Positions 7,084 to 33,413 of a stretch of 64,000 bases of DNA are shown piece by piece (positions within the stretch are counted from its first letter, which is position 1; every line of letters starts with the position of its first letter). Source of the stretch: Gammaproteobacteria bacterium (GTDB taxonomy: Bacteria > Pseudomonadota > Gammaproteobacteria > JAABTG01); contig JAXHLS010000002.1 in assembly GCA_034522055.1 (NCBI GenBank), positions 3,429,549 to 3,493,548 on the forward strand, written 5' to 3'. A model generated the notes under the pieces. That model was not told the DNA's origin and ran no database searches. It saw only the letters and a list, made by a program, of their open reading frames with translations. The translations under genes were made by a program, and so were the position numbers.

Positions 7084-8765
7084 AATAAGCTTAGGGTGCA
7101 GATCTTTTAGGACGCAATGAAATCAATGAGATAGCGTGATTAGGGGTAGCCGAAAGGGCCAGCCGATGGTATGTAACAAGCTACGAAACCGTTATGTACC
7201 ACTGGGAGGCCCTTCCGACGATGACAGCGTATACCAAGGTGGATGGATTTGACGAGTTTGCAGCGGCCCGAGAGGGGTTTGAGCATTTGGTGGGTGAGCT
7301 TTGCAGCGCGGACAACGAGGCATTGGAGCACGGCCAGGTGGAACGGCTCATTGAGGAGGAAGGATGGGAAGTTCTGCGACGCTTGATGCAGGGTTACGTA
7401 GATTTGCGCACACATAACGAGGTGCGTGTGAGCGCGATGACAGGTGCCGATGGCCAAGTGCGCGGGGAGTGTCGCGGCGACCGCAGCCGGCAGCTTGAGA
7501 CCGTGTTCGGGACCGTGGAGGTTCGGCGCAAAGGCTACAGCGAGCGGGGATTGGCGAGCGTCTTTCCGCTGGATGAGTCGCTGAACCTGCCGCGGGAGAA
7601 GTACTCCCACGGTCTGCGTGAGCGGGTGGTCAAGGCCGTGGTGAAGGCGTCCTTCGACGAGACGGTCAGCGCGGTGCGCCAGAACACAGGAGGCCATGTG
7701 CCCAAGCGCCAAGCCGAGCAGCTGTCTACGGTCGTGGTGGAGGACTTTGACGCCTATTATCAGTGCCGTGCGGGCATACCGGCCGAGGACACCGATCTGT
7801 TGGTGATGAGCGCGGACGGCAAGGGTATCGTGGTGCGGACCGAGGATTTGCGTCCGGCGACCCGCAAGGCGGCCCAGAGCGCTTGTCACAAGCTCAAGAC
7901 GCGGCTGAGCCGGGGCGAGAAGCGCAACCGCAAGCGGATGGCCACCGTGGCGGCTATCTACGACGTGGCGCCGCACTGGCGCAGTGCCGAGCAGATCATG
8001 GGTGTGGAGGAGCGCTCGGGCGATGCCCGGCCCCGGCCTGAAGGGAAACGGGTATGGGCCAGCCTGGAGGAGTCCCGGAGATGGTCATCGAGCGCCTGTT
8101 TCAGGAGGCTGCCCGGCGTGATCCAGAGCGCCGGCGGCGCTGGCTGGTGCTCGTAGACGGGCACGAGAAGCAGCTGGACATCGTGAACGGGTGCATCGCG
8201 CGTTACGGGGGCGACGTGGTGGTCATCCAGGACTTCATCCATGTGCTGGAGTATCTGTGGAAGGCCGCTTACTGCTTCCATCCCGCGGGCTCGCAGGGCG
8301 CCGAGCAGTGGGTCATGGAGCGGGCTCTGCGCGTCCTGCACAGCGAGGCCAGCAGCGTGGCTGCCGGCATGCGCCGCAGCGCGACACGCCAGGGATTGAC
8401 GCCAGCGCGGCGCAAGGCCGTGGACACCTGTGCCCGCTACCTGCTCAAGAACAAGGCGCGCCTGGATTATGCCGAGGCACTGGCCCACGGATGGCCCATC
8501 GCCACCGGCGTCATCGAGGGTGCCTGTCGTTACCTGGTCAAGGACCGCCTGGAAATCACCGGCGCCCGATGGGGCTTGAAGGGTGCTGAGGCCATCCTCA
8601 AGCTGCGTGCCCTGCATGCCAGCGGAGACCTACAGGACTACTTTGCATTCCATCGCAGCCAAGAGCGGCGCCGCAACTATCCGACCGGGTATGGCCAGCC
8701 GTGCTGCCTGGCCGCATAGGGGCTGGTGGATGTCGTCCCAAAAGAGCCGCACCCATAAGCTTATT
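7084..8765 (+). mobile_element. ISKra4-family-like insertion sequence
   Basis: The ends form an inverted repeat. The left end at 7084 reads AATAAGCTTAGGGTGC and the right end, read inward from 8765, reads AATAAGCTTATGGGTGC. Both continue with a shared CTTTTxGGACG block. The element is about 1.68 kb and holds a single transposase gene that is frameshifted. It interrupts the group II intron, so it arrived later. I could not define a target duplication with confidence. Confidence 0.75.
7194..8719 (+). pseudogene. ISKra4-family transposase, frameshifted
   Basis: The N-terminal half (from 7194, about 290 residues in frame) and the C-terminal half (in frame from about 8054 to 8719) are both well preserved, but the reading frame changes near 8050-8080. 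The second frame continues with WLVLVDGHEKQLDIV, which contains a catalytic-type Asp, then DFIHVLEYLWKAAY and ITGARWGLKGAEAILKLRAL, typical of the C-terminal region of ISKra4 transposases. The first frame contains DLLVMSADGKGIVVR with another catalytic-type Asp. Unless programmed frameshifting restores it, the enzyme is inactive. The alternative start at 7221 is equally possible. Confidence 0.75.
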
Positions 8766-9310
8766 GCGGATGTCGACAGTTTTAACTTGCTGGAAGACAA
8801 CACGAAGCACCCGGAATAGCTTGGGTGTGGAGGTCCGCCGGAGTCCACAGGCCGTGGCATGCAGGAAGAGAGGCGCCGTAGAACTCGGGAAGCCCCGCAA
8901 GCTCCTGAACGAGGTGAAGCCATGAAACCGACAGAGCTGGGACACGCAAGGGTGAAGAGCCTGGACACGGCGTATGCTCGGGTGGAGGGGCCGAACAGGG
9001 AGCGGACAGGTAGGCCGGGAACGGCCGCATGCGAACGGGGTGTCTTATCGAGTATAATAGTCGGAGGTTGGGAAAGCCAGCCACAAGGCGAAGGACCCGA
9101 CGGGAGTATGCAGTCCGCAAAGGAAACTCGTGCCGGACACGTTGGATCGGATCAACATGAGCCCACCTCACTGCGGGCAATAGCAACTGGGCCTTGTAAC
9201 GGGTAACTGTGAAGGTCCGCGCGAAAGCGAGTACAACCGAGGAACCGGATGCGGGAAAACCGCACGTCCGGGACTGTACCGGGGCGCCGGGTAACCGGCG
9301 TCCCTACGAC
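8766..9310 (+). ncRNA. 3' portion of the group II intron, with domains V and VI
   Basis: The segment contains GAACGAGGTGAAGCCATG, a signature seen in bacterial class C group II introns. Near the end are a domain-V-like hairpin at about 9241-9274 (ACCGGATGCGGG / CCGCACGTCCGG) and a domain-VI-like hairpin at about 9277-9308 (CGCCGGGTAACCGGCG with CCTAC carrying the expected branch A). The intron should end near 9310 (CTACGAC). No reverse-transcriptase frame lies between the domains, so the intron has lost its maturase or depends on one elsewhere. Class C introns favour attC sites, which fits the adjacent cassette array. Confidence 0.65.
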
Positions 9311-9353: not shown

Positions 9354-9824
9354 ATGCAGAGGTTCGTTTGGGACACCTCCGCAATAATCAACATTAAGGA
9401 TCCGGATTACACCGGATACTCGCCAGGCTACAGCCTCATAAAGGATCTCTCTGACGGCTGGATACCTGGCCCATACCAAAACATCTTCCCGAGTTTGGCG
9501 GTATTTGAAGTGTCTGCGACTGCTTCACGGATGCATCGAGAAGGGAAACGGATACTGCGCGAGTTTTATCTGATGGACGAGAATGCCGTTCTCTATGACG
9601 TAGATCGCGGACTTATCGAGAAAAGCTACAAGCTACATGAGAAGCCCGGTTTCGATCGATTGAGAGGGGCAGATTTGGTATTTGCCTGTATAGCCTGCAT
9701 TGAGAACGCATATTTAGTAACGCTGGACAAGGCGTTCGCGAAAAATCTAGGCAACGCCGTTCAACTCATAGATCTAAATGAGAGCATCGCTTCCGCAAGA
9801 TACCGTTCGCTTTTCGGGATTTAG
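9354..9824 (+). CDS. PIN-domain protein, VapC-like putative RNase
   Basis: 156 residues from the ATG at 9354; an upstream ATG at 9321 is in frame but lies at the intron border. PIN-domain acidic residues are recognisable: FVWDTSAIIN (first D), AVFEVSAT (E), LRGADLVFACIA (D) and VTLDKAFAKN (D). VapC-type PIN proteins are Mg-dependent ribonucleases and usually toxins. No antitoxin gene is adjacent, which is common for genes captured as integron cassettes. It is the first recognisable gene of the cassette array, directly downstream of the group II intron 3' end. Confidence 0.65.
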   Translation: MQRFVWDTSAIINIKDPDYTGYSPGYSLIKDLSDGWIPGPYQNIFPSLAVFEVSATASRMHREGKRILREFYLMDENAVLYDVDRGLIEKSYKLHEKPGFDRLRGADLVFACIACIENAYLVTLDKAFAKNLGNAVQLIDLNESIASARYRSLFGI

Positions 9825-9847
9825 AAGCAACGACGTCAATGGAAATT

Positions 9848-9868
9848 GCGCCCAACTGAGCGTTATGC
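9848..9868 (+). repeat. attC right half-site
   Basis: GCGCCCAACTGAGCGTTATGC is the classical right end of an integron attC site, ending in the core GTTATGC (GTTRRRY) at 9862-9868. The next gene's ATG follows immediately. The left half of this site is not clear and may have been altered near the intron insertion. Confidence 0.55.
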
Positions 9869-10537
9869 ATGACCGCACCTAGTCACAGGAACCGTACGGC
9901 TCAGGAGATCGTCTCGGAGCACATCTACCATGATGCTCAGGGCTTTGGATACCGCGCCGCATCGTGGCTCGATCTCGCGCACCGTTCAGGTGACTTCGCA
10001 CCTTTCCACTACGCCTGCATCGACGCAAGGCTGTCAATCGAACACCTCATTTTCGAACAGCTCGTCATTACCGCCGGCGGCGCGTTGGACCAAGATTCGT
10101 ATAAGCGATGCCTTTTGGAACCAAGGAAGCTCGACAAGGTGCTCAACCGCCTTGTCCCCGACTACGATCGATTGCAGGAATTCAACACGATCGTTGGATC
10201 CCTCTTGCCCGGGCTCCCAAGGCTTAACCGATGGAACATCACGGACTTGCGAAAGTCGTGGGGTAAGTTGTCTCAGTACTTGCATTGGTCGGGGGCGCAT
10301 CCTGAAACAACCGAGAACCCACCATGGCAGAGACACGCTCTTGACCAAGTTACTTCTATCATCGACCCGCTGTGGCAGAAGATCAGCTCGGGGCACACGG
10401 GTTCGATCGCTCTCGATTCCATGCCCAGGCCGGTCCGCGAGGTGTGGGAAGACTTCAGGGTCGAGAAGATCGACGCTGAATCCGTTCGAATCCGACTAGA
10501 GCTGGTTCGGCCCAGTACAAGCCCGAGTCATGCATAA
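9869..10537 (+). CDS. Cassette-encoded protein of unknown function
   Basis: 222 residues. The ATG follows directly on the attC core GTTATGC, and the stop codon overlaps the next attC-like site (GCATAAC at 10532-10538), exactly how integron cassettes are built. The protein is mostly helical, with ACIDARLSIEHLIFEQLVITAGG near residues 50-72 and a Trp-rich central part (LRKSWGKLSQYLHWSG). No catalytic motif stands out and I do not recognise the family. Base composition is lower in GC than the ICE genes, in line with cassette origin. Confidence 0.6.
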   Translation: MTAPSHRNRTAQEIVSEHIYHDAQGFGYRAASWLDLAHRSGDFAPFHYACIDARLSIEHLIFEQLVITAGGALDQDSYKRCLLEPRKLDKVLNRLVPDYDRLQEFNTIVGSLLPGLPRLNRWNITDLRKSWGKLSQYLHWSGAHPETTENPPWQRHALDQVTSIIDPLWQKISSGHTGSIALDSMPRPVREVWEDFRVEKIDAESVRIRLELVRPSTSPSHA

Positions 10538-10619
10538 CAACGGCATCGCAGCGTTCGCTTCGCTCACTCGGACCGCCAGTCCACTACGCAGCCTGTCGGC
10601 CGTGCATGCCGGGCCTTAG
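10532..10619 (+). repeat. Degenerate attC-like site
   Basis: It begins with GCATAAC (RYYYAAC type), the complement of the preceding core GTTATGC. It has inner complementary blocks CGGCAT (10541-10546) and ATGCC near 10610. The right-hand core appears decayed (CTTAGAG), so recombination here is doubtful. It separates the unknown cassette gene from the Shedu gene. Confidence 0.5.
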
Positions 10620-10628
10620 AGGATAAAA

Positions 10629-11705
10629 ATGTCAGGTGACGAGGCAATTGGGAATGTCAACAGGAGAGCCGCATCCTCCGGGCGAGTGAGTTATGGCGAT
10701 TCTGTCGTACTTCATGAAACGTCTCGATCACGGGTAACGCTCACGCCCTTCTTCATTCCACACTCAGATCATTCTGAGCTCTCGATCAAACTGACAACCT
10801 ACAAAAAAGAGGGTGGTGCGCTAGGCTGGTTGATAAACGAAGAAAAAACACTCACTCTCAATGAAGCGGCCTCAAGGTTGTTGCTCAATTCTCTACAACA
10901 GCATTTGGCAGTTGCCACTGAAAACCAAGATGGAAATTTTCTTCTTCTAAGGGTATCTGAAGGCGCAACTGATATTGGTCAACACGATCCTGCGTTGGTG
11001 GCTTCTGCACTTACGCGAGTATTGGGGCAAGAAGACATTGTTCAGCATCTAGCTGGAGCCGAGCTGAGCGATGTGCTCGTTAACTCACTGCGTGGTGCTA
11101 TACGGGTCAGGGAAATGCAATCGGCTGTATCAGAACTGCGAAAAAATTTGAACCAAGGCTTGACCGATGAACAAATTTATCAAGAATGGTGTAAGTACCA
11201 CGCTTGGGCCTTCGGTAGCGCATACGTCGTAAACGATGAAGTGCGCAATATTACTGCCAGTGATAATCTCGATTTATTGCTTCCTACTGTGATTGCTGGC
11301 TACCGAGATTTAGTTGAACTGAAAAGGCCTGATATGCAGGTGCTCAGGTACGATCAAGCTCATCGTAACTACTTCTGGTCAGCTGATGTATCGAAGGCAA
11401 TCGGCCAATGTCATAGGTATTTGGACGTCCTTCACGAGGTTGCGGCCAGCGGATTACGAGATCATCCAGAAATCGTGGCCTATCATCCAAGGGCAATTAT
11501 TGTCATAGGAAGGTCTAGCGACTGGCCAGATCCACAGTTAAGGGCTTTGCACGGTCTCAATCATCGCCTTTCGAGCGTTACCGTCATGACGTACGATCAA
11601 TTGCTCTCACAAGGTGAGCGGCTGCTACAAATTGTGAGCCCAAATGATGATTACGAAGAAGCCTCAATAGGCGTTAATGGCGATTGGGAAGAAGATTTTG
11701 AATGA
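10629..11705 (+). CDS. sduA: Shedu anti-phage protein (DUF4263 nuclease)
   Basis: 358 residues. The C-terminal half has the DUF4263 signature: QEWCKYHAWAFGSAYV, then DNLDLLLPT, then YRDLVELKRPDMQVL, giving a PD-(D/E)xK-type D...ExK active site around residues 215-245. After that comes FWSADVSKAIGQCHRYL, also typical. Shedu is a known single-gene defence system in which SduA acts as a DNA nuclease on invading phage. The N-terminal ~180 residues would be the variable sensing region. The gene lies in its own integron-type cassette (attC-like sites at 10532-10619 and 11756-11842) and is AT-richer than its surroundings. It appears intact. Confidence 0.85.
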   Translation: MSGDEAIGNVNRRAASSGRVSYGDSVVLHETSRSRVTLTPFFIPHSDHSELSIKLTTYKKEGGALGWLINEEKTLTLNEAASRLLLNSLQQHLAVATENQDGNFLLLRVSEGATDIGQHDPALVASALTRVLGQEDIVQHLAGAELSDVLVNSLRGAIRVREMQSAVSELRKNLNQGLTDEQIYQEWCKYHAWAFGSAYVVNDEVRNITASDNLDLLLPTVIAGYRDLVELKRPDMQVLRYDQAHRNYFWSADVSKAIGQCHRYLDVLHEVAASGLRDHPEIVAYHPRAIIVIGRSSDWPDPQLRALHGLNHRLSSVTVMTYDQLLSQGERLLQIVSPNDDYEEASIGVNGDWEEDFE

Positions 11706-11755
11706 AGTTCTTTCTAAGTGGATAGAAGAAGCAGCAAAGCTTGCCGGAAAGTAAG

Positions 11756-11842
11756 TTATAACAATCACATGCGCTCGGACAGCAAAAAGCGCCGCTCCTT
11801 CGTCGCTCTGCTTCTTGCTGCCGGTGATGCGCAGCGTTGGAC
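11756..11842 (+). repeat. Integron attC site downstream of Shedu
   Basis: The left core TTATAAC (11756-11762) is followed by AATCACATGCGC, and the right core is GTTGGAC (11836-11842). The inner arms CAGCAAAAAGC and GCTTCTTGCTG pair with one mismatch, giving the extended imperfect hairpin typical of attC. Length is about 87 bp. Confidence 0.7.
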
Positions 11843-11856
11843 GGAGGGATTCACTT

Positions 11857-12660
11857 GTGGTGCTACCAGCGTACTTGGCAGATGTCGCACGGGAGATGCG
11901 GGCACGGTCGGCCTCGATCCGGCGCGACTACGCGAGCCATCACTTGTCTGCCGGTGAGAACCGCGAGGATCTTGTAGCTCACTTTCTTGAGGATCACCTT
12001 CCAAAACGCTTTGGGATAAGCAGTGGAATGGTGATATCGCACGATGGGGCGTTCTCCAATCAAGCAGACCTTGTAGTGGTTGACGCACTGAACAACGCTC
12101 CTCTTCATGCGAGTCAGCGCAATCAGCTTTGGCCGGTTGAAGCGGTATACGCACTCATTGAAGTAAAGACGACCATCAGCCCGTCCGATCTCGAGGACGC
12201 CATCGCAAAGTGTCGCCGGTTCAAAGCACTCAAGCGGAGGTTCTGTGAAACGGGGCAGAACCAAAGGATCTTTGACTCCCTCTTTGTCATATGGTCCTTC
12301 GATTCAGCGAAGGCTGTCACGCTTAAGAAGAATCTCGCAGCGGCGCTCTCAGATGTGCTGCGCGGTGAGCAGCCTGACTTGTTATTGGTTCCAGACCGTC
12401 TGGTTGCCCGCGCTGGCTCGTACCTTGAGCTCTCGAAGCTCGGGCAGCCAAGCAGTTCATTCCGCGGCCAACTACATGCAAAGCATGGAGCCGACCTTAG
12501 CCACCTAGTCCCAGAGCCCGCGGAGGTTGGGGAAATGGACGAAAATGCACTGCTGGCATGGTTTATCTGGTTCGACTCTTGGCTTCGGCAGGCCGGGGCG
12601 CGATCCACGGACCTCATCGCCTATCTGCCTCCGGACGTGATCCTCGGACGCATTGTATGA
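11857..12660 (+). CDS. DUF6602-type protein, probable PD-(D/E)xK nuclease
   Basis: 267 residues from the GTG at 11857, chosen because GGAGG lies about 9 bases upstream and this start falls inside the cassette; in-frame ATGs at 11815 and 11827 lie within the attC site. The sequence has FSNQADLVVVDALN followed by AVYALIEVKTTIS, a D...ExK arrangement near residues 60-105. An N-terminal HHLSAGENREDLVAHFLEDHLPK motif is typical of DUF6602. Proteins of this family are linked to restriction-like and defence contexts but have no settled function. It is bounded by two attC sites, so it is a mobile cassette gene. Confidence 0.65.
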   Translation: MVLPAYLADVAREMRARSASIRRDYASHHLSAGENREDLVAHFLEDHLPKRFGISSGMVISHDGAFSNQADLVVVDALNNAPLHASQRNQLWPVEAVYALIEVKTTISPSDLEDAIAKCRRFKALKRRFCETGQNQRIFDSLFVIWSFDSAKAVTLKKNLAAALSDVLRGEQPDLLLVPDRLVARAGSYLELSKLGQPSSSFRGQLHAKHGADLSHLVPEPAEVGEMDENALLAWFIWFDSWLRQAGARSTDLIAYLPPDVILGRIV

Positions 12661-12677
12661 GCCCGGCCCCAAAGAAT

Positions 12678-12732
12678 GTCCAACGAATAAGGATAGGTCG
12701 CGCGTAGCCGCGATCTTATCCCGGTGTTGGAC
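12678..12732 (+). repeat. Integron attC site, near-perfect
   Basis: GTCCAAC (12678-12684) and GTTGGAC (12726-12732) are exactly complementary core sites. GGATAGGTCGCG and CGCGATCTTATCC pair inside with one extra base. At 55 bp it is a compact attC and the clearest proof of cassette structure here. Confidence 0.85.
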
Positions 12733-13084
12733 GAGCCCGCGGTTTGAGCGCGGCGAGCACTTTATATAAGAAAATATGAATGTTAAACAAGCAAGGAGGT
12801 TATTGGTATTCTCTCGAGTTTCCGCTGCGGTGCTGTTCGCCGCGGCGGCCCCAGCATTTGTCGCCAGCGGTCGAAACGGGATTGCTGGTTCAGGGATCCC
12901 CTCATTTCCCGAGGCGACGTGCTAGGTGTCTGAGTTCCCGTTGAGACAGGGGAGCCCGGGGCCAACGGACCGTCGGTAACATGTTGATTTTAAGAGGCTC
13001 AAAGAATGAGAGGATCCCTGAGAATTGCTGGGTGATTTCCATGAGAAGCTCCTCTGCTGTTCAGCCCGCCCTCGTGCAATATCC
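12733..13084. other. Intergenic stretch with no identifiable gene
   Basis: About 350 bp between the last attC site and the decayed transporter gene. One AGGAGGT at 12794-12800 precedes a 40-codon frame from TTG at 12803 with a hydrophobic start, but the spacing is too short to support translation. Nothing else stands out. Confidence 0.4.
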
Positions 13085-14422
13085 GAGCTATTTCCACGGC
13101 GATTCCACCCCTTCCACCCGGTATTCGCGCAGCAGGGCCCGCTCGAGGTTGATGCAGGCAAACGCCAGGATCACCGCCACCGGCAGGCCCGCGGTGATGG
13201 AGGCGGTCTGCAGGTTGGCGAGTGCGTCAGCGCCACCTACCAGGAGCAGCGTTGCGGCCACTGCGCCCTCGGTGATTCCCCAGATCACGCGCTGGCGCCG
13301 CGGGGAGCGCTTGCTGCCGCGGGAGATCAGCGCGTCCACCACGTGGGTGCCGGAATCCGAGGAGGTGATGAAATACGTGGCGATGAGCAGGGTCGCCAAC
13401 ACCGAGGTGATTTCGGCCAGAGGCAGTTGCGCCAACGTGACGTACAACGCCACGGTGGTGTCCTTAGCCACGACGGCGGCGATTCCGGTGCCATTTTCTC
13501 CCAGGGCGATCTCCAGGGCGGTGCCACCGAAGGTGGCCATCTACAACAGCACGAAGGCGGTGGGCATTATCAGCACACCGAGGATGAATTCGCGAATGGT
13601 CCGTCCGCGCGAGATCTGGGCGATGAAGATCCCCACGAAGGGAGACCAGGCGATCCACCAGCCCCAGTAGAAGATCGTCCAGTTCTTCTGCCACTCCGAG
13701 CCTTGCATGGGGTCGGTGGCCAGGCTGAGTTCGATGATCTGCTGCAGATTATCCCCCGGTGGCGTCCAGCAGGAAGCGGATCAGAAACAGCGTGGGCCCG
13801 AGCAGCAGGACGAATGCGAGCAGTAGCAGGGCCAGGTCGAGGTTGAACACTCAGCCACTTGAGTCCGCGGTTCAGCCCGGAAATCACCGACAGCACGGCG
13901 ATGGTGGTGATGTCGCCGATGATGCCGACCTGTGACCACTGCGACACCGGCATGCCGGTCAGCAGGTTCAGCCCGGTGTTGAGTTGCATGGCACCGAAGC
14001 CCAGTGAGGTGGCCAGACCGAACAGGGTGCCGAACACCGCCAGGATGTCGATGAGGTGGCCGATGGGGCCGTAGATCCGGTCTCCGAGCAGAGGATAGAA
14101 AATGGAGCGGATGGTCAGCGGCAGACGGTGGCGATAGCGGAAATAGGCCACCGACAGACCGAGCACCACGTAGATCGCCCACGCGTGCAGGTCCCAGTGG
14201 AAGAAGGTGTAGATCATCGCCTAGCGGGCTGCTACCGGAGTCCCGCCAGCGCCCGTCGGCGGCTTCTGGAAATGGAGGATGGGCTCGGCCACGCTCCAGA
14301 ACACCAACCCGATGCCCATGCCGGCGCTGAACAGCATGGCGAACCAGGACGTCAGCCCGAAACGCGGCTGGTCGCCGGGCTGCCCCAGGCGTATCCGCCC
14401 GTAGCGGCTGAACAGCAGCCAT
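13085..14422 (-). pseudogene. Decayed BCCT-family transporter gene
   Basis: Minus-strand segments in several frames spell a betaine/choline/carnitine transporter: GMGIGLVFWSVAEPILHFQ near 14290, HWDLHAWAIYVVLGLSVAYF near 14160, then LGFGAMQLNTGLNLLTGMP, and ATYFITSSDSGTHVVDALIS near 13350. In-frame stops lie at 13541-13543 and 14221-14223, and frame changes occur around 13750-13860. The N-terminal ~80-100 residues are missing beyond 14422, where the ICE operon begins, so the gene was cut by that junction. An intact protein would be a 12-helix sodium- or proton-coupled osmolyte carrier. Confidence 0.85.
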
Positions 14423-15087: not shown

Positions 15088-15170
15088 CGGGGTGACCGGA
15101 ACCGACTCGGTCCGGGTGCGACGCCCGGGATGTGGTGATCAGGGATCTGCCCTGCAAATTCGGAGAAATG

Positions 15171-15524
15171 ATGATGTTCGCACAAGGGAAGAAGAGGACG
15201 GTGGCCCTGCTGGGCCTCCTGGGTCTCGCCGCCAGTATGCCCGTGTCGGCGGCACTGCCTACCCCGGTCGCGCCGAGCACCGCGCCGGCGGCCGGCGATT
15301 GGATTGGACTGATCCAGGGTTACATCAAGGACGGTGGCTTGGTGCTGGGCCTCGCGATTGCGGTATTGGGCTTCCTCTGGGTCGCGTACCTGGCGTTCGC
15401 GAAGTTCAACGAGGCGCGCCAGGGCAAGGCGGAGTGGGCCGAGGTCGGCGTGCTCGGCATCGTCGGGGCGGTGGTGCTGATCTTCGCGAGCTTCCTGCTC
15501 ACCGAAGCGGCCGGCGTCATCTGA
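15171..15524 (+). CDS. ICE pilin-like membrane protein, TIGR03745 family
   Basis: About 117 residues. Three consecutive ATGs (15168-15176) follow CGGAGAA; I chose the second because its spacing from GGAG is best. A signal peptide (VALLGLLGLAASMPVSAA) is followed by two membrane helices (GLVLGLAIAVLGFLWVAYL and VGVLGIVGAVVLIFASFLL). The short size and the helix-loop-helix layout resemble TIGR03745/DUF2976 and conjugative pilins such as TraA/VirB2. It is the likely pilus subunit of this system. The next gene starts 6 bp after its stop. Confidence 0.75.
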   Translation: MMFAQGKKRTVALLGLLGLAASMPVSAALPTPVAPSTAPAAGDWIGLIQGYIKDGGLVLGLAIAVLGFLWVAYLAFAKFNEARQGKAEWAEVGVLGIVGAVVLIFASFLLTEAAGVI

Positions 15525-15530
15525 TTCCCC

Positions 15531-15911
15531 ATGGCGGACCGTCACGACATCCTCGCCGATCGGCTGAATGCCGAGCCCGCGATCTTAAAGGGCTGCTCGT
15601 CGAGCGAATTGGGCGTCATCGTTGGCGTTTCGCTGCTGCTGTGGCTGCCCGCCAGTCTGATCCTGGCGGGGCTCGCGGGTGCCGTCACGATGGGCTTCGG
15701 CATCGCGGGCGTCGGCATCGTCGCGACCGTGCTGCTGATGGCGAGTCTGTTCCAGCGCCTGAAGAGGAACCGCCCGGACGGCTACTACCAGCAGCGCGTC
15801 GTGCTCTGGCTCGACGCCCGCGGCATGCGACGCGCGCCCTTCGTCCGTCGGAGCGGCGCGTGGGACATCGGCAGGACGGCACATGCGACGTTACCGGCAC
15901 GAGATCGATAA
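15531..15911 (+). CDS. ICE membrane protein, TIGR03750 (TraL-like) family
   Basis: 126 residues with a soluble N-terminus (NAEPAILKGCSSSELGV) and a pair of membrane helices from about 27 to 75. It then has a short basic cytoplasmic part with RLKRNRPDGYYQQR. The layout matches TIGR03750/DUF3487, which resembles TraL/VirB3-type assembly proteins. Its 3' end overlaps the next gene by 29 bp. Confidence 0.8.
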   Translation: MADRHDILADRLNAEPAILKGCSSSELGVIVGVSLLLWLPASLILAGLAGAVTMGFGIAGVGIVATVLLMASLFQRLKRNRPDGYYQQRVVLWLDARGMRRAPFVRRSGAWDIGRTAHATLPARDR

Positions 15912-16542
15912 CGTCCGCGCCCACCTGCGCTCGCTGTGGGCCGTGATCGCCATCCAGGTGGTCATCATCGCCGCACTCTGGTTCGGCTGGAGCCGGGCGC
16001 CCGAGCAGATGACCGTCCACATCCCGCCCGATCTGCGCTCGGGGGCGGTGCTGGCCGTGGAAGAGGTGTCGCCACCCAACGTGTATGCCTTTGCCTTCTA
16101 CATCTTTCAGCAGCTCAACCGTTGGCCGGAAGACGGTGCCACGGACTATGGCCGCGCCATCTTCCGGATCTCGCCTTACCTCACGCCCCGTTATCGCGCG
16201 ATGCTCACCGCCGAGCTCGAGCAGAAGGGCCGCCAGGGTGAACTCGCCTACCGCGTGCGGGGTGTCCAAGAGATCCCCGGCCACGGTTACGAGGAAAGAC
16301 GCGTCGACCTGCTTAACGAGGATGCCTGGATCGTCTGGCTGGATCTCGATCTCCTGGAGTCGGTGAAGGGCATGACGGTCAAGCGCACCGCCATCCGTTA
16401 CCCGCTGCGCGTGGTGCGTTACGCGGTCGATCCCGAGGCCAACCCCTGGGGATTGGCACTGGACGGATTCGGCGCCGAGGGGCCGCGGCGGCTCACCGAT
16501 GCCGAACTCGGGGACACGGGGGGTACCGATGGTGGTGCATAG
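15883..16542 (+). CDS. ICE protein, TIGR03746 (TraE-like) family
   Basis: 219 residues: a short cytoplasmic start, one membrane helix at about 18-38 (LWAVIAIQVVIIAALWFGW) and a periplasmic domain. Motifs such as NVYAFAFYIFQQLNRWP and TDYGRAIFRISPYLTPRYR are typical of TIGR03746/DUF2895. The topology is that of TraE/VirB8 proteins, which nucleate the secretion channel. It overlaps both the preceding and following genes, as elsewhere in this operon. Confidence 0.8.
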   Translation: MRRYRHEIDNVRAHLRSLWAVIAIQVVIIAALWFGWSRAPEQMTVHIPPDLRSGAVLAVEEVSPPNVYAFAFYIFQQLNRWPEDGATDYGRAIFRISPYLTPRYRAMLTAELEQKGRQGELAYRVRGVQEIPGHGYEERRVDLLNEDAWIVWLDLDLLESVKGMTVKRTAIRYPLRVVRYAVDPEANPWGLALDGFGAEGPRRLTDAELGDTGGTDGGA

Positions 16543-17344
16543 CGCATTTGGAGTCGCAACGCCCGAGTGGCGGTGGTGGATGTCCGCCCTGCTCGCCGCA
16601 CTCCTCCTGCTGCAGACAGCGGGCGTCAACGCGGCGCCCGATGTGCCGGAGCGCATCGCCTGGCGCAAGACACCGATTGGCATCGAGCTCGCCGTCGGTG
16701 CCGAGCGGCTCGTCCATTTTCCGCAAGGCGTCAAGGTTGGCGTGCCACCGCAGATCCAGGGGGCGCTGCGCGTGCAGAGCATCGACGGCACGCTCTACCT
16801 GCTGGCCAACCAGCCGTTCGCCGCCACCCGCGTGATCGTGCGGGGGATGGGCAACGGACCGATCTACCTGCTCGACCTGTCCGCAGTGGCCGAGGGCGAC
16901 GGAAACAGCCCCATTCGGATCTATCTGCCAGACGAGGAGCCCGCCAACGACTCGGCGTCGACGAAGGCCCCCGATCCACCGCAATACGGCTACGTGACGC
17001 TGACACGCTTCGCCGCCCAACAGATGTACGCCCCGGCGCGACTGCTCCAGGACCTCCCCGGCCTCAATCGGGTGCCCATCAAGCGCGAGCCGGTGGCACT
17101 GGTGCGCGGCGGCGCCGTCGAGGCCTTACCCCTCATCGCCTGGCGCGCGGGCGATCTCTATATCACCGTCGCCAAGCTCACCAACGAGACCCACCAGCCG
17201 CAGATCCTGGATCCGCGGACGTTGCGCGGCCGCTGGCTCACCGCGACTTTCCAGCACAACCGGCTGCACGAGGCCGGCAGCGAGGCCGATGGCACGGTGG
17301 TGTACCTGATCTCAGATCGGCCCTTCGCGGTCTCGCTGCGGTAA
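16529..17344 (+). CDS. ICE protein, TIGR03749 (TraK-like) family
   Basis: 271 residues from the ATG at 16529, which follows a G-rich ribosome site; an upstream ATG at 16499 is in frame. The N-terminal signal sequence (ALLAALLLLQTAGVNAA) directs it to the periplasm. The mature domain contains ERLVHFPQGVKVGVPP and IDGTLYLLANQPFAATRVIV, features of TIGR03749/DUF3438. The family resembles TraK/VirB9 outer-membrane core components. It overlaps the 3' end of the previous gene by 14 bp. Confidence 0.8.
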   Translation: MVVHSAFGVATPEWRWWMSALLAALLLLQTAGVNAAPDVPERIAWRKTPIGIELAVGAERLVHFPQGVKVGVPPQIQGALRVQSIDGTLYLLANQPFAATRVIVRGMGNGPIYLLDLSAVAEGDGNSPIRIYLPDEEPANDSASTKAPDPPQYGYVTLTRFAAQQMYAPARLLQDLPGLNRVPIKREPVALVRGGAVEALPLIAWRAGDLYITVAKLTNETHQPQILDPRTLRGRWLTATFQHNRLHEAGSEADGTVVYLISDRPFAVSLR

Positions 17345-17350
17345 TCGACC

Positions 17351-18775
17351 ATGCCTGCCGCCACCGCCAATCGCCTGTTGCCCCTCCTCGGCGGCGCCGT
17401 CGTACTGATGCTGGTCTTCGTGACGCTGAAATCCTGCTCCCAGGACGAGGGTAGCGGCGCCGTGCTGGACCGCGTGCCGACGGCGCCGGCCCCGGATGCC
17501 GACACGCCGGCCGACACCATCAAAACCCTCACGGCCAACGTGGCCGCCATGACCACGGAGGTCGAGGCACTGCGCCGCGAGAATGCGACCCTGGCCAGGG
17601 AGAATCAAAACCTCGTCGCCCATCGCACCCAGATCGAGGAGAACGTCGCCACGCGGCTGCGCCGGGAGCTGCTGTCCCGCGAGCGCGACGCGGAGAACCA
17701 GGGCCGCATCGATTCCGGCGTGCTCGCCTCGCTGACCGATCGGGTCGACCGGCTGGCGGCGTCCGTGGCCCGGGTGGGGCCGGGCAGCGGTGCCGACATC
17801 CCGGTGGGACTCGGTCTCGACGGCCTCGGGGGCGCGCAAGGGCCGGCGCCCGGCCTCATCTGGGTAGAACCGCTCGATGCGCCGGCCGCGACCGCAACAA
17901 AGTCCGGGCTGCTGGATCGGGCCGGGCAGACGGCGGGCGGCTATCTCGACGGTGCCCGGACGCGCACCGCGCAGGCGGTGACCGACGCGCGAGACCGAGT
18001 GGACGCGCGGAAGAGCCGACCTGCCTACACGGTCCCCCGCAACGCCACGCTCATGGGCTCGACGGCCATGACCGCACTGGTGGGCCGGATCCCGATCCAG
18101 GGCCAGGTCCGCGATCCGATGCCGTTCAAGGTGATCACCGGCAGCGACAACCTGGCCGCCAACGGCCTGACGGTGCCTGGCGTGCAAGGCATGGTCTGGA
18201 GCGGTACCGCGGTCGGCGACTGGACGCTGTCCTGCGTCACCGGTCGGCTCGAGTCCGTCACCTTCGTGTTCGACGACGGCACCATCCGCACGATTTCGAG
18301 CGACGATCGCAGCGGCCAGGTGAGCGGGCGGGCGAGTGGCCAGGGCGGACGTAACGAAGCCCTCGGCTGGATCTCGGATCCCCAGGGGATCCCGTGCATC
18401 AGCGGTGAGCGCAAGACCAACGCCGCGTCGTTTCTGACCCAGCGGATCGGCGTGCAGGCCATCCAGGCCGCGGCCGACGCGGCAGCCGCCGCCGAGACGA
18501 CCTCGGTGATCAGTGACCTCGGCAGCGTGACCGACAGCGTCACCGGCGATGTCGGGACCTACATGCTCGGCAAGACCGTGGCCGGCGGCAGCGAGGAAGT
18601 GGCCAAGTGGCTGCTCGAACGCCAGTCCCAGAGCTTCGATGCCGTGTTCGTGCCGGCTGGCACGGGAGTCGCCATTCACGTCGATCGCGAACTCGCCATC
18701 GACTTCCATACCGAAGGCAGGAAACTCAATCATGCACGCTCGACTGCGACCGATCGTCACCATCGTCTGGATTAG
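17351..18775 (+). CDS. ICE protein, TIGR03752 (TraB/VirB10-like) family
   Basis: 474 residues. A single N-terminal membrane helix (LLPLLGGAVVLMLVFVTL) is followed by a coiled coil (about residues 55-115, with EVEALRRENATLARENQN) and a C-terminal periplasmic domain with RNATLMGSTAMTALVGRIP. This is the TraB/VirB10-like energy-sensing scaffold that spans the envelope in G-type ICEs. The C-terminus (STATDRHHRLD) overlaps the start of the lipoprotein gene by 44 bp. The gene appears intact and full length. Confidence 0.85.
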   Translation: MPAATANRLLPLLGGAVVLMLVFVTLKSCSQDEGSGAVLDRVPTAPAPDADTPADTIKTLTANVAAMTTEVEALRRENATLARENQNLVAHRTQIEENVATRLRRELLSRERDAENQGRIDSGVLASLTDRVDRLAASVARVGPGSGADIPVGLGLDGLGGAQGPAPGLIWVEPLDAPAATATKSGLLDRAGQTAGGYLDGARTRTAQAVTDARDRVDARKSRPAYTVPRNATLMGSTAMTALVGRIPIQGQVRDPMPFKVITGSDNLAANGLTVPGVQGMVWSGTAVGDWTLSCVTGRLESVTFVFDDGTIRTISSDDRSGQVSGRASGQGGRNEALGWISDPQGIPCISGERKTNAASFLTQRIGVQAIQAAADAAAAAETTSVISDLGSVTDSVTGDVGTYMLGKTVAGGSEEVAKWLLERQSQSFDAVFVPAGTGVAIHVDRELAIDFHTEGRKLNHARSTATDRHHRLD

Positions 18776-19154
18776 CCTCGCGCCTATGCTGCTATTGGGC
18801 GGGTGCGCCGGCACCAAGGAGTCCGTGCTGCCGCAGGACGGTCCGTCGATGAAGGCGATCTACGACGGGCACCTCACGGGCATGGGCGCCGATGGTCCAC
18901 TGGCCGTCCGTCGGGAGCTGGGCACGCGGCCCCTGGGTGATGACGATGTCGACCTGGCCGGGTACTCGCGCACCGCCCACACCGAGCTCGAGACCCTCTT
19001 CCCGCGGCTGCCCAACCCGACCCTGGTGATGTACGTATTCCCCCACCTCGCCGATGCCGAGCGGGTACCCGTGCCGGGCTATGCCACGACCTTCACCCTC
19101 TACGAGCGGGTCGAGTACGCACTGCCGGGCGAAGTCCCGAGCGGGCAGCGTTGA
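18732..19154 (+). CDS. ICE conjugal lipoprotein, TIGR03751 (TraV-like) family
   Basis: 140 residues from the ATG at 18732. It has a type II signal peptide with lipobox LLLGGCAG (Cys near residue 25), so it should be anchored in the outer membrane. The mature part (LPNPTLVMYVFPHLADAERVP and YATTFTLYERVEYALP) matches TIGR03751. It probably works with the TraK- and TraB-like proteins as the outer-membrane core (TraV/VirB7 role). It overlaps the previous gene and ends two bases before the ATPase start. Confidence 0.8.
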   Translation: MHARLRPIVTIVWISLAPMLLLGGCAGTKESVLPQDGPSMKAIYDGHLTGMGADGPLAVRRELGTRPLGDDDVDLAGYSRTAHTELETLFPRLPNPTLVMYVFPHLADAERVPVPGYATTFTLYERVEYALPGEVPSGQR

Positions 19155-19156
19155 GG

Positions 19157-21919
19157 ATGCCCAAGTTCTCCCTGACCGCGCCGCGCACGGTTTCGACGGC
19201 CGATTCGAGCAGGGCCGCGACCGCGGCACGTCCCCTGACGACGCGTGAGGTGAAGGCCCTGTACGCCCGGCCGCCGTCCTTCACCGACTTTCTGCCCTGG
19301 GTCGAGTACCTGCCGGAGAGCCGCTGCTTCCTGCTCGAAGATGGGGTGAGCGTCGGCGCCCTCTTCGAGCTGACGCCCGCAGGCACCGAGGCCCGCACGC
19401 CGGGCTTCATGGCGGAGCTGCGCGACGCGCTCCAGACCGCGATCACCGAGGCGATCCCGGAGCTCATGGATGCGCCCTGGATCCTCCAGATCTACGTGCA
19501 GGACGAGCCGAGCCTGTCGGATCTGCTGCGCGAGTTCGAGGCCTACCTGCCGCCGGGCGCGCGCGAGAGTGCGTACACCCGCCATTACTTCGAAGTGCTG
19601 AAGGCCCATTGCGCCCACATCAGCCGCCCGGGTGGCCTGTTCGAGGACTCAGCCCTCACCGGTACCGTCTGGCGTGGCCAGGTGCGGCGGGTGCGGGCGG
19701 TGCTCTATCGGCGACTGAATCCGCGCAGCCGCAGCCCAAGCGCGCTCGAAGTGGAGGCCGAACTCAACGACGTCGCCACCAAGTGGACTGCGGCCCTCGC
19801 CGCGGCCGGGATCCGCTGCCGGCGCGGCACGGGGGCAGATCTCTACCGCTGGCTGCTGCCCTGGTTCAACCCGCGCCCGGAGTGTGCTGAAGGCGCGGTG
19901 GAGCAACTGCTGGCTGCCGCCCCATACCCCGGCGATGAAGATCTGCCGTTCGGTGCGGATCTCGGCGAGCTGCTGACCCTCTCTTGTCCCAAATCGGACA
20001 ACGACTCGGCAACCTGGTGGTTCGATGGGCTGCCCCACACCCTCGTCACGGTGCAGGGGCTCCGGCGGGCGCCCGACATCGGCCACATGACCGCGGAACG
20101 CCCATCCGGCGATCATGTGTTCTCCCTGTTCGATCGAATGCCTGAGCACACCGTGATGGTGCTCACCATCATCGTGAAGCCCCAGGATGTGGTGCGGAAC
20201 CACATCGGGTTGGTCAAGCGCGCCGCGGTGGGCGACTCGGCGGAAGCCGAGTTGACGCGGGAGGACGCCGCCGCGGTGGAGCGCGAAATGGCGACCGGCA
20301 ACAAACTCTATCCCCTGCAGCTGGCGTTCTACGTCCGCGGCGAGGATCTCGCGGCGCTGCGCACCCACGTCAACCAGATCAATGCCCTGCTGCTGCCCAA
20401 CGGCCTGCAGCCCATCGCTCAGGAGGCGGATCTGCTGGCCCTCGACAGCTATCTGCGCAATCTGCCCATGGCCTATGACGCCCGACTCGACCGCGTCAGT
20501 CGCCGCTCGCGCCTGGTCTTCTCCAGGCACATCGCGAACCTGCTGCCCCTCTATGGCCGCTCGCGTGGCACCGGCCATCCGGGGCTCGTGTTTTTCAACC
20601 GGGGCGCCGAGCCCCTGGTGTTCGACCCCTTGCACCGCGCGGATCGCAAGAAGAACGCGCACATGCTGATCCTGGGACCCACCGGGGCCGGCAAATCCGC
20701 CTTGCTCGTCTATCTGCTGCAGCAGATGGCGGCGGTGCACCGCCCGCGGATCTTCATCATCGAGGCCGGGGGCTCGTTTGCCCTCCTGGGTCAGCACTTT
20801 GCGAGCCAGGGGCTCACAGTCAATCAAGTCACCCTGAACCCGGGTACGGATGTGAGCCTGCCGCCGTTCGCGGACGCGCTGCGTCTTTTCTACACGGATC
20901 GACGTGTGAAACGCGTTACCGATCCCGAGGCGCTCGACGTGCCGGACGAAGACGACGACGGTGACGATGCCGAAAGCCCGGGCCGCGACATCCTCGGTGA
21001 AATGGAGATCGCCGCGCGCATTATGATCACCGGTGGCGATGAACGCGAGGACGCCCGCATGACTCGCGCCGATCGTCTGCTGATCCGCAATGCCATTCTG
21101 TTATCAGCCAAGACCGTGGCCGCCGAAGGGCGCGACCAGGTCCTCACGCGGGACGTCGTCGCGGCGTTGACCATCATCGGCCGCGATCCGGGCCTGCCGG
21201 AGCACCGGCGCAACCGGGCGCTCGAGATGGGCGACGGCATGGCGCTCTTCTGCTCGGGCCTCGCCGGCCACTTCTTCGACCGGCCCGGCAAGCCCTGGCC
21301 GGCGGCGGATGTCACCATCCTCGAGCTGGGCATGCTCGCCCGCGAAGGTTACGAAGATCAGCTGACCGTGGCCTACATCTCCATGATGAGTCACATCAAC
21401 GATCTGGTGGAGCGCCACCAGAGCGACGCGCGGCCCACCCTCGTCGTCACCGACGAGGGGCACATCATCACGACGAACCCGCTGCTCGCGCGCTACGTCG
21501 TCAAGATCACCAAGATGTGGCGCAAGCTCGGCGCCTGGTTCTGGATCGCGACACAGAACCTCGAGGACTTCCCCGACGCCAGCCGCCGGATGCTCAACAT
21601 GATGGAATGGTGGCTGTGCCTCGTCATGCCCAAGGAGGAGGTCGAGCAGATCGCGCGGTTCAAGGATCTGACAGAAGAGCAGCGCAGCCTCCTGCTGTCG
21701 GCCCGCAAGGAGCCGGGCAAGTACGTCGAGGGCGTCGTGCTGGCGGACAACCTGGAGGCCCTGTTCCGCAACGTGCCACCCCCCCTGTCGCTGGCGCTCG
21801 CCATGACCGAGAAGCACGAGAAGGCCGAGCGGGCCGCGATCATGCGCGAGCGCGGCTGCACCGAGCTCGAGGCGGTCCACATCGTGGCGGAGCGGATCGC
21901 GGCGCAACGCGGTGGCTGA
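19157..21919 (+). CDS. ICE conjugation ATPase, TIGR03744 (TraC/VirB4-like)
   Basis: About 920 residues from the ATG at 19157; TTG at 19151 is the other option. Walker A (LGPTGAGKSALLV) lies near residue 505 and Walker B (PTLVVTDEGHII) near 760, typical of VirB4/TraC motors. The N-terminal ~400 residues form the TraC-type domain that docks on the inner-membrane complex. The protein powers pilus assembly and DNA transfer by ATP hydrolysis at the cytoplasmic face. An acidic insert (DEDDDGDDAES) lies near residue 600. No frameshift is seen, and the length is normal for the family. Confidence 0.9.
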   Translation: MPKFSLTAPRTVSTADSSRAATAARPLTTREVKALYARPPSFTDFLPWVEYLPESRCFLLEDGVSVGALFELTPAGTEARTPGFMAELRDALQTAITEAIPELMDAPWILQIYVQDEPSLSDLLREFEAYLPPGARESAYTRHYFEVLKAHCAHISRPGGLFEDSALTGTVWRGQVRRVRAVLYRRLNPRSRSPSALEVEAELNDVATKWTAALAAAGIRCRRGTGADLYRWLLPWFNPRPECAEGAVEQLLAAAPYPGDEDLPFGADLGELLTLSCPKSDNDSATWWFDGLPHTLVTVQGLRRAPDIGHMTAERPSGDHVFSLFDRMPEHTVMVLTIIVKPQDVVRNHIGLVKRAAVGDSAEAELTREDAAAVEREMATGNKLYPLQLAFYVRGEDLAALRTHVNQINALLLPNGLQPIAQEADLLALDSYLRNLPMAYDARLDRVSRRSRLVFSRHIANLLPLYGRSRGTGHPGLVFFNRGAEPLVFDPLHRADRKKNAHMLILGPTGAGKSALLVYLLQQMAAVHRPRIFIIEAGGSFALLGQHFASQGLTVNQVTLNPGTDVSLPPFADALRLFYTDRRVKRVTDPEALDVPDEDDDGDDAESPGRDILGEMEIAARIMITGGDEREDARMTRADRLLIRNAILLSAKTVAAEGRDQVLTRDVVAALTIIGRDPGLPEHRRNRALEMGDGMALFCSGLAGHFFDRPGKPWPAADVTILELGMLAREGYEDQLTVAYISMMSHINDLVERHQSDARPTLVVTDEGHIITTNPLLARYVVKITKMWRKLGAWFWIATQNLEDFPDASRRMLNMMEWWLCLVMPKEEVEQIARFKDLTEEQRSLLLSARKEPGKYVEGVVLADNLEALFRNVPPPLSLALAMTEKHEKAERAAIMRERGCTELEAVHIVAERIAAQRGG

Positions 21920-31089: not shown

Positions 31090-31311
31090 AAACCCAGAGT
31101 TGAGCGAGACTTAAGAGAGCGATAGATTCGCATCCGCGGCGAAGGCGAGCTAAATCGCCTGCTTTGCATCCGCTTCGAAGAGTCTGGATGTCACCATCCT
31201 GGGATATTGCATAAGCTTGCTGGAATGCGCTCTCCGGTCAGATGCAGGTGTACAGCAAAACGCATCGCGGCGCCAGGAAAAGAGCAAGAGAAAGGACAGG
31301 AAGGGGGTCTC

Positions 31312-32577
31312 ATGAAAGCCGATTCGGCCAAGGCCTCCGCGAGCCGCGGATTTTATTGGCCTATGGCTTTAACCAGAGCGAAGTACGCGGCGGTAGAGCT
31401 GTGCTGCGGCATGGGTGGGATTGGTATCGGACTCGCAGCGGCGAAATACAAGGTCGTGAAGGCGTACGACTCGTGGTCTGCCGCTACCGCGATCTACAAC
31501 CACAACGCTCCGGAACCGGTCGCGAGCGTATGCAACCTCGTAACCGAAGAAGGCCTGGCCACGGTCAGGCGCGACCGCCGCAAGCTCGGTGACGTCGACC
31601 TTCTTGCCGCTGGTCCTCCCTGCAAGGGGTTCAGCCAAATCCGCAACGGCCATCACGATCGGCCCAACCCCCACAACCGCGTGCTACTGGCGATGCCGCA
31701 GTACGTGGCGCTCTTTCGGCCCCGGCTCGTACTGATCGAGAATGTACCCGACTTGGCACGGCACGATGGTGGTGAAACGCTACGCCTCCTCCTCGAGAAC
31801 CTGGATCGCCCAGGTCCGCGGGGGCTCCGCTATCGGGTCGAGTACGGCGTCTACGATGCTGCTCTCTACGGAACACCTCAGGCCCGCCGGAGACTTCTGA
31901 TCCTCGCGGTGCGGCACGGATCCGGTGAAGAGCATCTACCGGATAACTCAGCCGATCTAACAGCGCTGTACGCAAGCCTGCGGCACGGTGGAGAGATTCC
32001 TGCGGAGCTTGAGAGCTATGCCGAATGCCTGGCGGACCCAGACGACCTTTCTATGACCTCCGGGCGCCAAGCGCTGTCCGATCTCCCGGTACTGGGGGCG
32101 GGCGAGCCAGAGTTAGTGCGCTCGTATGCGACCCCCCCCCGCAACGCATACCAGCGAGCGATGCGTGCCGGGTCGTCTGACCCTCTCACCAACACGCGCA
32201 CGCCCGCCGTTCGCAAGGAGACGATACAGCGCTTGAAGATGATCCCCCCGGGGGGCTGTGCTCGAGACATCCCGAGGCACAAGCTAAATGGCCTCTCTCG
32301 GCGGTATGATTCTGCCTATCGCCGCCTTCACCCTGACGCGCCGTCGACGGCGTTGTCGACCAAGTATGACTGCGTCTACCACTTCAGCGAACACCGTTCA
32401 CTCTCGGTCCGAGAGTATGCGCGGCTTCAAGGCATTCCCGACCGGATTTCATTTCCAGAAGAACTCGCCTGCCGCAGGTTCGCGTATGAGATGATCGGCA
32501 ACTCCGTTCCGCCCTTCCTCATACACGGCGTCCTAATGGAGATCGCCGAATCCACTCGGCGGAGGAAGGCAGGATGA
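31312..32577 (+). CDS. druM: DruM: DNA cytosine-5 methyltransferase of a Druantia type II system
   Basis: 421 residues from the ATG at 31312, preceded by AGGAAGGGGGT; in-frame upstream ATGs lack a ribosome site. C5-methyltransferase motifs occur in order: I (ELCCGMGGIGIGL, near 28), IV with the catalytic Cys (AAGPPCKGFSQ, near 100), VI (ENV, near 143), VIII (QARRRLL) and X (YEMIGNSVPP). It would methylate host DNA at a specific site so that the partner proteins spare it. It heads a five-gene operon in which every junction overlaps. The following helicase with fused DUF1998 and two unique proteins identifies the system as Druantia type II. Confidence 0.85.
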   Translation: MKADSAKASASRGFYWPMALTRAKYAAVELCCGMGGIGIGLAAAKYKVVKAYDSWSAATAIYNHNAPEPVASVCNLVTEEGLATVRRDRRKLGDVDLLAAGPPCKGFSQIRNGHHDRPNPHNRVLLAMPQYVALFRPRLVLIENVPDLARHDGGETLRLLLENLDRPGPRGLRYRVEYGVYDAALYGTPQARRRLLILAVRHGSGEEHLPDNSADLTALYASLRHGGEIPAELESYAECLADPDDLSMTSGRQALSDLPVLGAGEPELVRSYATPPRNAYQRAMRAGSSDPLTNTRTPAVRKETIQRLKMIPPGGCARDIPRHKLNGLSRRYDSAYRRLHPDAPSTALSTKYDCVYHFSEHRSLSVREYARLQGIPDRISFPEELACRRFAYEMIGNSVPPFLIHGVLMEIAESTRRRKAG

Positions 32578-33413
32578 GCCGCGGGTTCCGATTTTCTCCT
32601 GGTGGCCAGGCGACGCTGCTGTGGCTCGATGAGCTTCTGGAAGACGCCTACGGGGCCCCCGAAGCGCTGCTTGGAAATCACGCCGATCCACTCGACGAAG
32701 CGGTCTATATTATCCTCAGCTTCCAAACGGATCTGGCACGCTTTCAAGAGACGTGGCGGGAACTTCGCGCTGCGTTCCCGAGCTGGGAGAATGTGGAGCG
32801 CGCAAGCAGGGCTGATGTTGCCCGCGCCCTGCGGGCCGGTGGCCTCCACCAACAGAAAGCACGTACGATCAAAGCTCTGCTACAAGCAGTGCGGCACCAG
32901 TTTGGGGAGCTTTCGCTCACCCAGTTGGCCGGCATGAGCAATGAGAGCGCGGAACGCATTCTCACTCGGCTTACCGGTCTATCCTGGAAGGGGGCTCGCT
33001 GCGTCCTGATGTATAGCCTGGACCGCCCGGTGTTTCCCGTGGATGGGAACACCTTCAGAATCTTGCAGCGCGCTGGCGTCATCCCGCAGACTGCAGTCTA
33101 TCGACACAGGTCATTGCACGACAGGCTGCAGCACGCCGTCCCGGAAGGCCGCCGGAGGCCCTTCCACGTCAACCTGGTCGTCCACGGCCAGCGCTCGTGC
33201 CTCCCGATCGCTCCCCAGTGCGATAGTTGCCCTGCGGCGGCAGTCTGCAAGAAGCGCGGGGTACGCTCGGGAAGTCACGAGCAGACCGGTCTGCTGCGAG
33301 ATTGGGCCAATGGCGAGGAGGGGAAGCAGGAGCAGGTGCGAGCTGAGGTGACTGGACGGAATAGGTCCGAACCACCACGGTTCGAGGGCCAATACGCTGC
33401 TGCAATGGGGTGA
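32574..33413 (+). CDS. Endonuclease III-like [4Fe-4S] DNA glycosylase in the Druantia operon
   Basis: 279 residues; the start overlaps the methylase stop (ATGA). Helix-hairpin-helix/GPD features are intact: LTGLSWKGARCVL with the lyase Lys near 137, and PVDGNTFRIL with the catalytic Asp near 155. The iron-sulfur loop follows the exact C-x6-C-x2-C-x5-C pattern in residues ~208-225. Such enzymes excise damaged or mismatched bases. Next to a C5 methylase the obvious role is repair of T:G mismatches from deaminated 5-methylcytosine, as Vsr and Mig proteins do. The alternative is a direct nuclease role in defence. This gene is not part of the standard Druantia II set. The ~55-residue C-terminal tail is polar. 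Confidence 0.85.
   Translation: MSRGFRFSPGGQATLLWLDELLEDAYGAPEALLGNHADPLDEAVYIILSFQTDLARFQETWRELRAAFPSWENVERASRADVARALRAGGLHQQKARTIKALLQAVRHQFGELSLTQLAGMSNESAERILTRLTGLSWKGARCVLMYSLDRPVFPVDGNTFRILQRAGVIPQTAVYRHRSLHDRLQHAVPEGRRRPFHVNLVVHGQRSCLPIAPQCDSCPAAAVCKKRGVRSGSHEQTGLLRDWANGEEGKQEQVRAEVTGRNRSEPPRFEGQYAAAMG

Follow-up and report, generated by a model that had tools for sequence, protein, structure and literature searches.

The segment at 9862-12684 of the window (G000:C2:3429549-3493548, the whole 64-kb stretch that we analysed, from a genome of 5.1 Mb and 7 contigs) is very probably a decayed integron cassette array without integrase, a CALIN-type remnant with the end of an IS91-family element at its right. 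The gene families, one attC site recognised by covariance model, the complementarity of the core sites, the identity of the right end and the lack of an intact IntI gene form the core of this reading, while its weak points are that a single attC passes the models, at modest scores, that the ends of the Shedu cassette mismatch and that the PIN gene has no clear left boundary. In the mechanism we propose, each gene with its downstream attC would once have been a mobile cassette inserted by IntI at a GTTRRRY core, and the array would later have lost its integrase. The last cassette, for a DUF6602 nuclease, would stop at the R'' box of its own attC, where an IS91-family rolling-circle element may have been inserted, and subsequent loss would have spared only the 93-bp right end of this element. 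The array was thus presumably mobile by IntI in the past and is presumably immobile at present.

The first gene of the array (9354-9824, + strand) encodes a PIN-domain protein, a putative VapC-like nuclease (PF01850, 29.4 bits with a cut-off of 23.6), and its left boundary has been lost or replaced by an intron. It is followed by an open reading frame for 222 aa (9869-10537, +), whose product showed no match in Pfam or PADLOC and gave no usable fold model (pLDDT 39), and by the gene for the Shedu nuclease SduA (10629-11705, +; 358 aa), the reading frame of which is intact. SduA matched PDLC00402 of PADLOC with 519.9 bits (E 8e-157) and PF14082 with 56.5 bits, and it has the DUF4263/SduA_C nuclease domain by which SduA is recognised; the match to the solved Shedu structure 8ps4 was weak and covered the nuclease core (E 0.065). 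No close Shedu relatives were found among the genome contigs searched by short peptide patterns, and those in plasmids and in our class sample are distant only, with 31-34% identity in the class sample. The last gene (11860-12660, +) encodes a DUF6602 nuclease of the PD-(D/E)XK type (PF20247, 92.7 bits; PDLC01495, 120 bits), the N-terminal part of which is similar to NucC (PDB 7zgv, E 3e-11). Judging from their sequences, the Shedu and DUF6602 proteins, both with intact frames, would serve as anti-phage nucleases.

For the attC sites, covariance models were built from the same class. The search for integron integrases with TIGR02249 in 274 same-class genomes gave a match above the curated cut-off in 103 of them, and attC sites were found by core boxes and stem pairing in the DNA beside 20 of these; model R1 was built from 23 attC sites and R2 from 54, all beside IntI genes. 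R1 recovers the attC rows beside IntI, though these rows include its own training sites, and the structure line of R2 pairs column 7 with 48 instead of 49, while R1, free of this slip, gives the identical first rank. With both models, the first rank in the 64 kb is the attC at 11756-11842 (+; R'' TTATAAC, R' GTTGGAC), which scored 19.9 bits with R1 (E 0.011) and 16.4 bits with R2 (E 0.1); at the scale of the whole genome, E is 0.9 with R1 and the site is absent from the R2 list. Its sequence is close to attC sites beside IntI, and folding is more favourable for its bottom strand than for the top strand (-35.9 vs -28.9). The site at 10532-10621 (+), between the 222-aa gene and the Shedu gene, was aligned by eye: its left half GCATAACAACGGCATCGCAG and its right half GTGCATGCCGGGC both align with a canonical attC beside IntI (L057 2441-2521), but the crossover core is CTTAGAG, not GTTRRRY, with CTT as the crossover triplet instead of GTT. 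Neither model recognises its full length, R2 giving just a 3.8-bit partial match, and, as confirmed by eye only, it would be a real but dead attC. In the degenerate attC of the PIN cassette (9829-9868, +), the R' core GTTATGC at 9862-9868 is the only convincing part; there was no whole-site score, and core-box matches of 9-14 bits were found at 9850-9868. The attC of the DUF6602 cassette is represented by its R'' core GTCCAAC (12678-12684, +), the complement of GTTGGAC at 11836-11842. In Rfam, no match was obtained in the window at gathering thresholds, nor any attC-like family at the array at relaxed thresholds.

A real cassette should carry at its 3' end an R'' box complementary to the seven bases of its 5' core. 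The ends are exactly complementary (7/7) in the 222-aa cassette (GTTATGC/GCATAAC) and in the DUF6602 cassette (GTTGGAC/GTCCAAC), whereas the Shedu cassette alone fails this rule (CTTAGAG/TTATAAC). The Shedu gene may be one cassette, or half of a two-gene cassette together with the 222-aa gene; the fused unit agrees in 5/7 bases (GTTATGC vs GTTATAA). Because the crossover triplet of the attC between the two genes is mutated, the pair should move only together, bounded at 9862 and 11836, and in view of the mismatched ends of Shedu and the 5/7 of the fused unit, Shedu, should it move at all, probably does so together with the 222-aa gene.

No intact IntI gene was found anywhere in the 7 contigs. 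The best match is a C-terminal fragment at C2:1575537-1575896 (L001; TIGR02249 positions 194-313, 203 bits), which lies 1.9 Mb from the array and adjoins an IS66-type gene, so named from ORF reading, and model R2 detected no attC near it. As this fragment is the sole remnant, the array has no integron integrase nearby, as expected of a CALIN. On the other hand, the operational rule for CALIN asks for at least two neighbouring attC sites that a covariance model recognises (PMC12444791), and here 11756-11842 alone scores as a whole site, with models built in this study and not attc_4. The array falls short of the usual rule in this respect, and it is the two decayed sites and the exact matches of the cores that justify the name. 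There are further attC rows in the same genome, for example at C6:211681-232157 (L080, L081) and C2:1454390-1454931, and in the former a two-attC stretch is present twice, 15.5 kb apart, with identical scores.

These results partly agree with the preliminary description of this DNA, which had proposed an integrase-less cassette array carrying Shedu with four attC sites. The array stands in substance, though its four sites are not as described there. The PIN, unassigned, Shedu and DUF6602 genes were recovered as the families given above, with the 222-aa frame again without a match; the good attC at 11756-11842 proved to be in + orientation and the best of the window with both models; the degenerate one at about 10532 was seen again by eye only, as the decayed site with CTT; the right half-site ending at 9868 has in GTTATGC the exact complement of the R'' GCATAAC of the next cassette; and the absence of integrase holds for an intact IntI, the genome check yielding a fragment only.

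Both ends of the array are marked by mobile elements, with a group II intron remnant at the left and the IS91-type end at the right. The remnant (8674-9307, +) consists of a 5' part at 8674-8854 and a domain V/VI-like end at 9240-9307, probably the 3' end of the intron, with Rfam scores of 40.6 bits for RF02005 (E 4.4e-9, gathering 49) and 23.4 bits for RF00029 (E 0.31), both below gathering. The pieces are immediately 5' of the PIN gene and in cassette orientation, and no reverse transcriptase gene was recognised between them. Two overlapping frames at 7194-8719 make up a transposase-like gene of the UPF0236 type, which is probably broken. After the array, a BCCT transporter gene is split into several frames at 13088-14217 (-), and conjugative-element genes (TIGR03745, 03746, 03749, 03752 and 03744) occupy 15132-21919; this TIGR03744-TIGR03752 set places the array at the edge of an integrative conjugative element. 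Moreover, a Druantia-like set at 31207-42752 comprises a DruM-like cytosine methylase, a nicking-endonuclease-like protein, DruF-like and DruL4-like proteins and DruE4 (1761 bits).

At the right end, the preliminary description had seen a perfect attC at 12678-12732. The inverted repeat is present, but it scored 5.7 bits with R1 on the + strand, with no + match by R2, and 5.7-8.2 bits overall, the better value being on the wrong strand (8.2 bits on the - strand), and in gene orientation it does not qualify as attC. A core-box scan had made 12678 the only site of the window, and the trained models reversed this ranking; once copies from several genomes had been compared, the hairpin was no longer taken for attI or for a cassette-type attC. 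Thus, of the two sites that the preliminary description had put to the test of a covariance search, 11756 was accepted and 12678 rejected. To judge from copies in other genomes, 12678-12732 is composed of seven bases of R'' (GTCCAAC) and the end of an IS91-family element. The element part (12685-12777, - strand) corresponds to the right (oriIS-like) end of an element with an IS91-family TnpA and a tyrosine recombinase, and its terminal sequence is common with elements encoding IS91-type TnpA, which assigns it to the family. Homology to the other copies stops near 12777, with nothing further left of the element or of the attC, and no TnpA match was found within 4 kb downstream, so that 12685-12777 is a remnant.

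DNA copies of 12676-12760 were found elsewhere in the same genome and in 11 more members of the class sample (12/321 genomes). Nearly all of them begin after an RYYYAAC-like box and have the common hairpin, and most continue with the tail GTTGRACRAGCCCG, often followed by TATAAGAAAATATC; copies within the same genome have 177 to >700 bp of common sequence to the right of the hairpin. In a scan of 84,980 species genomes, element ends were found in at least 119 contigs, which by record title belong to beta-, gamma-, delta- and zetaproteobacteria, Acidithiobacillus and Riflebacteria, and the left flank was NNNYAAC in 72/81 copies among the matches listed. The complement of R'' was present upstream of the preceding gene in 8/16 class-sample copies (5.6% expected, P 8e-7), where it is often the R' of a canonical attC, and the cassette-end rule held in 27/70 copies among the matches listed (5.5% with swapped cores, P 1.6e-16), both P values assuming independent copies, which is only partly true. 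In many loci, the opposite strand carries an IS91-type TnpA gene (PF04986, PF14319) that terminates some 260-360 bp from the hairpin, and in many a tyrosine recombinase gene precedes it. Complete elements are mostly 2.30-2.43 kb, as in the 2.4-kb copy of Ectothiorhodospira shaposhnikovii (L123), and there are short two-ended forms of 381-767 bp. In L123, L127, L139, L170, L177, L178, L189, L193, L220 and others of L119-L237, the right end abuts RYYYAAC and the left end carries GTYCAAC, many of them inside attC. The copies with TnpA and tyrosine recombinase in the own genome (L238, L239, L240 and L241, and also L085) follow the same plan with different sequences; they have an attC-like hairpin end with GTCCAAC, and 2/4 flanks are GTTATGC.

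The far end of the element reads GCGTAGCGGCTTCGTYCAAC. Its GTYCAAC is the exact start of an attC match of R2 in nine loci, and joining of the flanks gives an ordinary attC in six copies (L123, L170, L177, L189, L193 and L220). These facts suggest that the element, on insertion behind R'', divides the attC and brings a replacement R'' with it. About half of the two-ended copies are at YAAC outside any recognisable attC, so that attC is strongly preferred without being the sole target. On balance, we are inclined to think that this is a widespread IS91-type family specialised on attC, which would be inserted after the R'' RYYYAAC opposite to the cassettes and would rebuild attC with the GTYCAAC of its far end, so that the transposon may travel as a part of a cassette.

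It is less probable, though worth consideration, that the right-end element was placed by IntI and not by its own transposase, being itself an integron cassette in inverted orientation; this possibility concerns only the mechanism at the right end and is compatible with the decayed array. Its ends, a 5' core GTTGRAC and a 3' attC-like hairpin with R'' GTYCAAC, do fit the plan of a cassette in the sense of TnpA, and the related hairpin of L233 scores as attC. However, the copies at YAAC without attC argue against it, as does the orientation, which is almost always inverted relative to the cassettes, and an IS91 transposase accounts for the YAAC target. IS91 itself uses GAAC/CAAG.

We consider it improbable that the palindrome at 12678-12732 is a true but unusual attC, which would make the array a normal CALIN with two good sites. 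The perfect R''/R' complementarity, the position after a gene, the related hairpins after other cassette genes and the attC-like hairpin on the minus strand (17.2 bits in the related L233, 8.2 in the window copy) would suit it, but the model score on the strand of the gene is low, the hairpin and the identical sequence downstream occur in multiple copies within genomes and end IS91 elements, the right half stays the same where R'' differs, and joining of the flanks removes the hairpin and restores an ordinary attC. Still less probable is a defence island built by ordinary transposition and deletion, in which the attC-like repeats would be remnants or accidental resemblances and none of the genes would ever have been a cassette: the dense setting of conjugative genes, group II intron, transposase and IS91 end would allow it, but the likeness of the 11756 sequence to attC beside IntI, the two exact cassette-end matches and the other attC rows of the genome speak against it.

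The decayed array is a further example of phage defence stored in integrons, and the IS91-type element matters more than the array, since an attC-invading IS91 family is the surprise. If a rolling-circle family indeed homes to attC and restores the sites, its members can be carried within cassettes, close off arrays and mislead readers of attC by their hairpin. IS91/ISCR and integrons, two gene-spreading systems, would then be linked through a common core sequence, which is directly testable.

That integrons contain defence genes is well established. The preliminary description regarded Shedu in a cassette as worth recording, but Shedu as an integron cassette gene has already been recorded by DefenseFinder in Xanthomonas (PMC12444791), a case like ours in a different host. 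The integrase-less arrays of Xanthomonas (PMC12444791) and Halorhodospira halochloris (PMC7923331) resemble ours in having attC-bounded single genes, no IntI nearby and defence or toxin-like cassettes, and group II introns, which have been described in integrase-less arrays, are represented by fragments in H. halochloris as here; in contrast to them, one attC alone passes the covariance model here, and the others are decayed or replaced. As published elements that target attC we found IS1111 types and group II introns, and no report of an association of IS91 with attC was found in the literature covered, which was partial and without subscription papers. According to PMC11187229 and the works cited there, the IS1111-attC elements ISPst6 and ISKpn4 are likewise inserted at one end of attC, but they use DEDD transposases guided by seekRNA, whereas the element here has an IS91-family HUH TnpA and a tyrosine recombinase with YAAC as the target, and it supplies a new R'' so that attC is rebuilt. 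With the IS91/ISCR family it shares the Zn_Tnp_IS91 and Y2_Tnp domains, a hairpin-bearing right end and a short fixed adjoining target, and it differs from them in that the YAAC target coincides with the integron R box, in the extra tyrosine recombinase and in the many copies inside attC.
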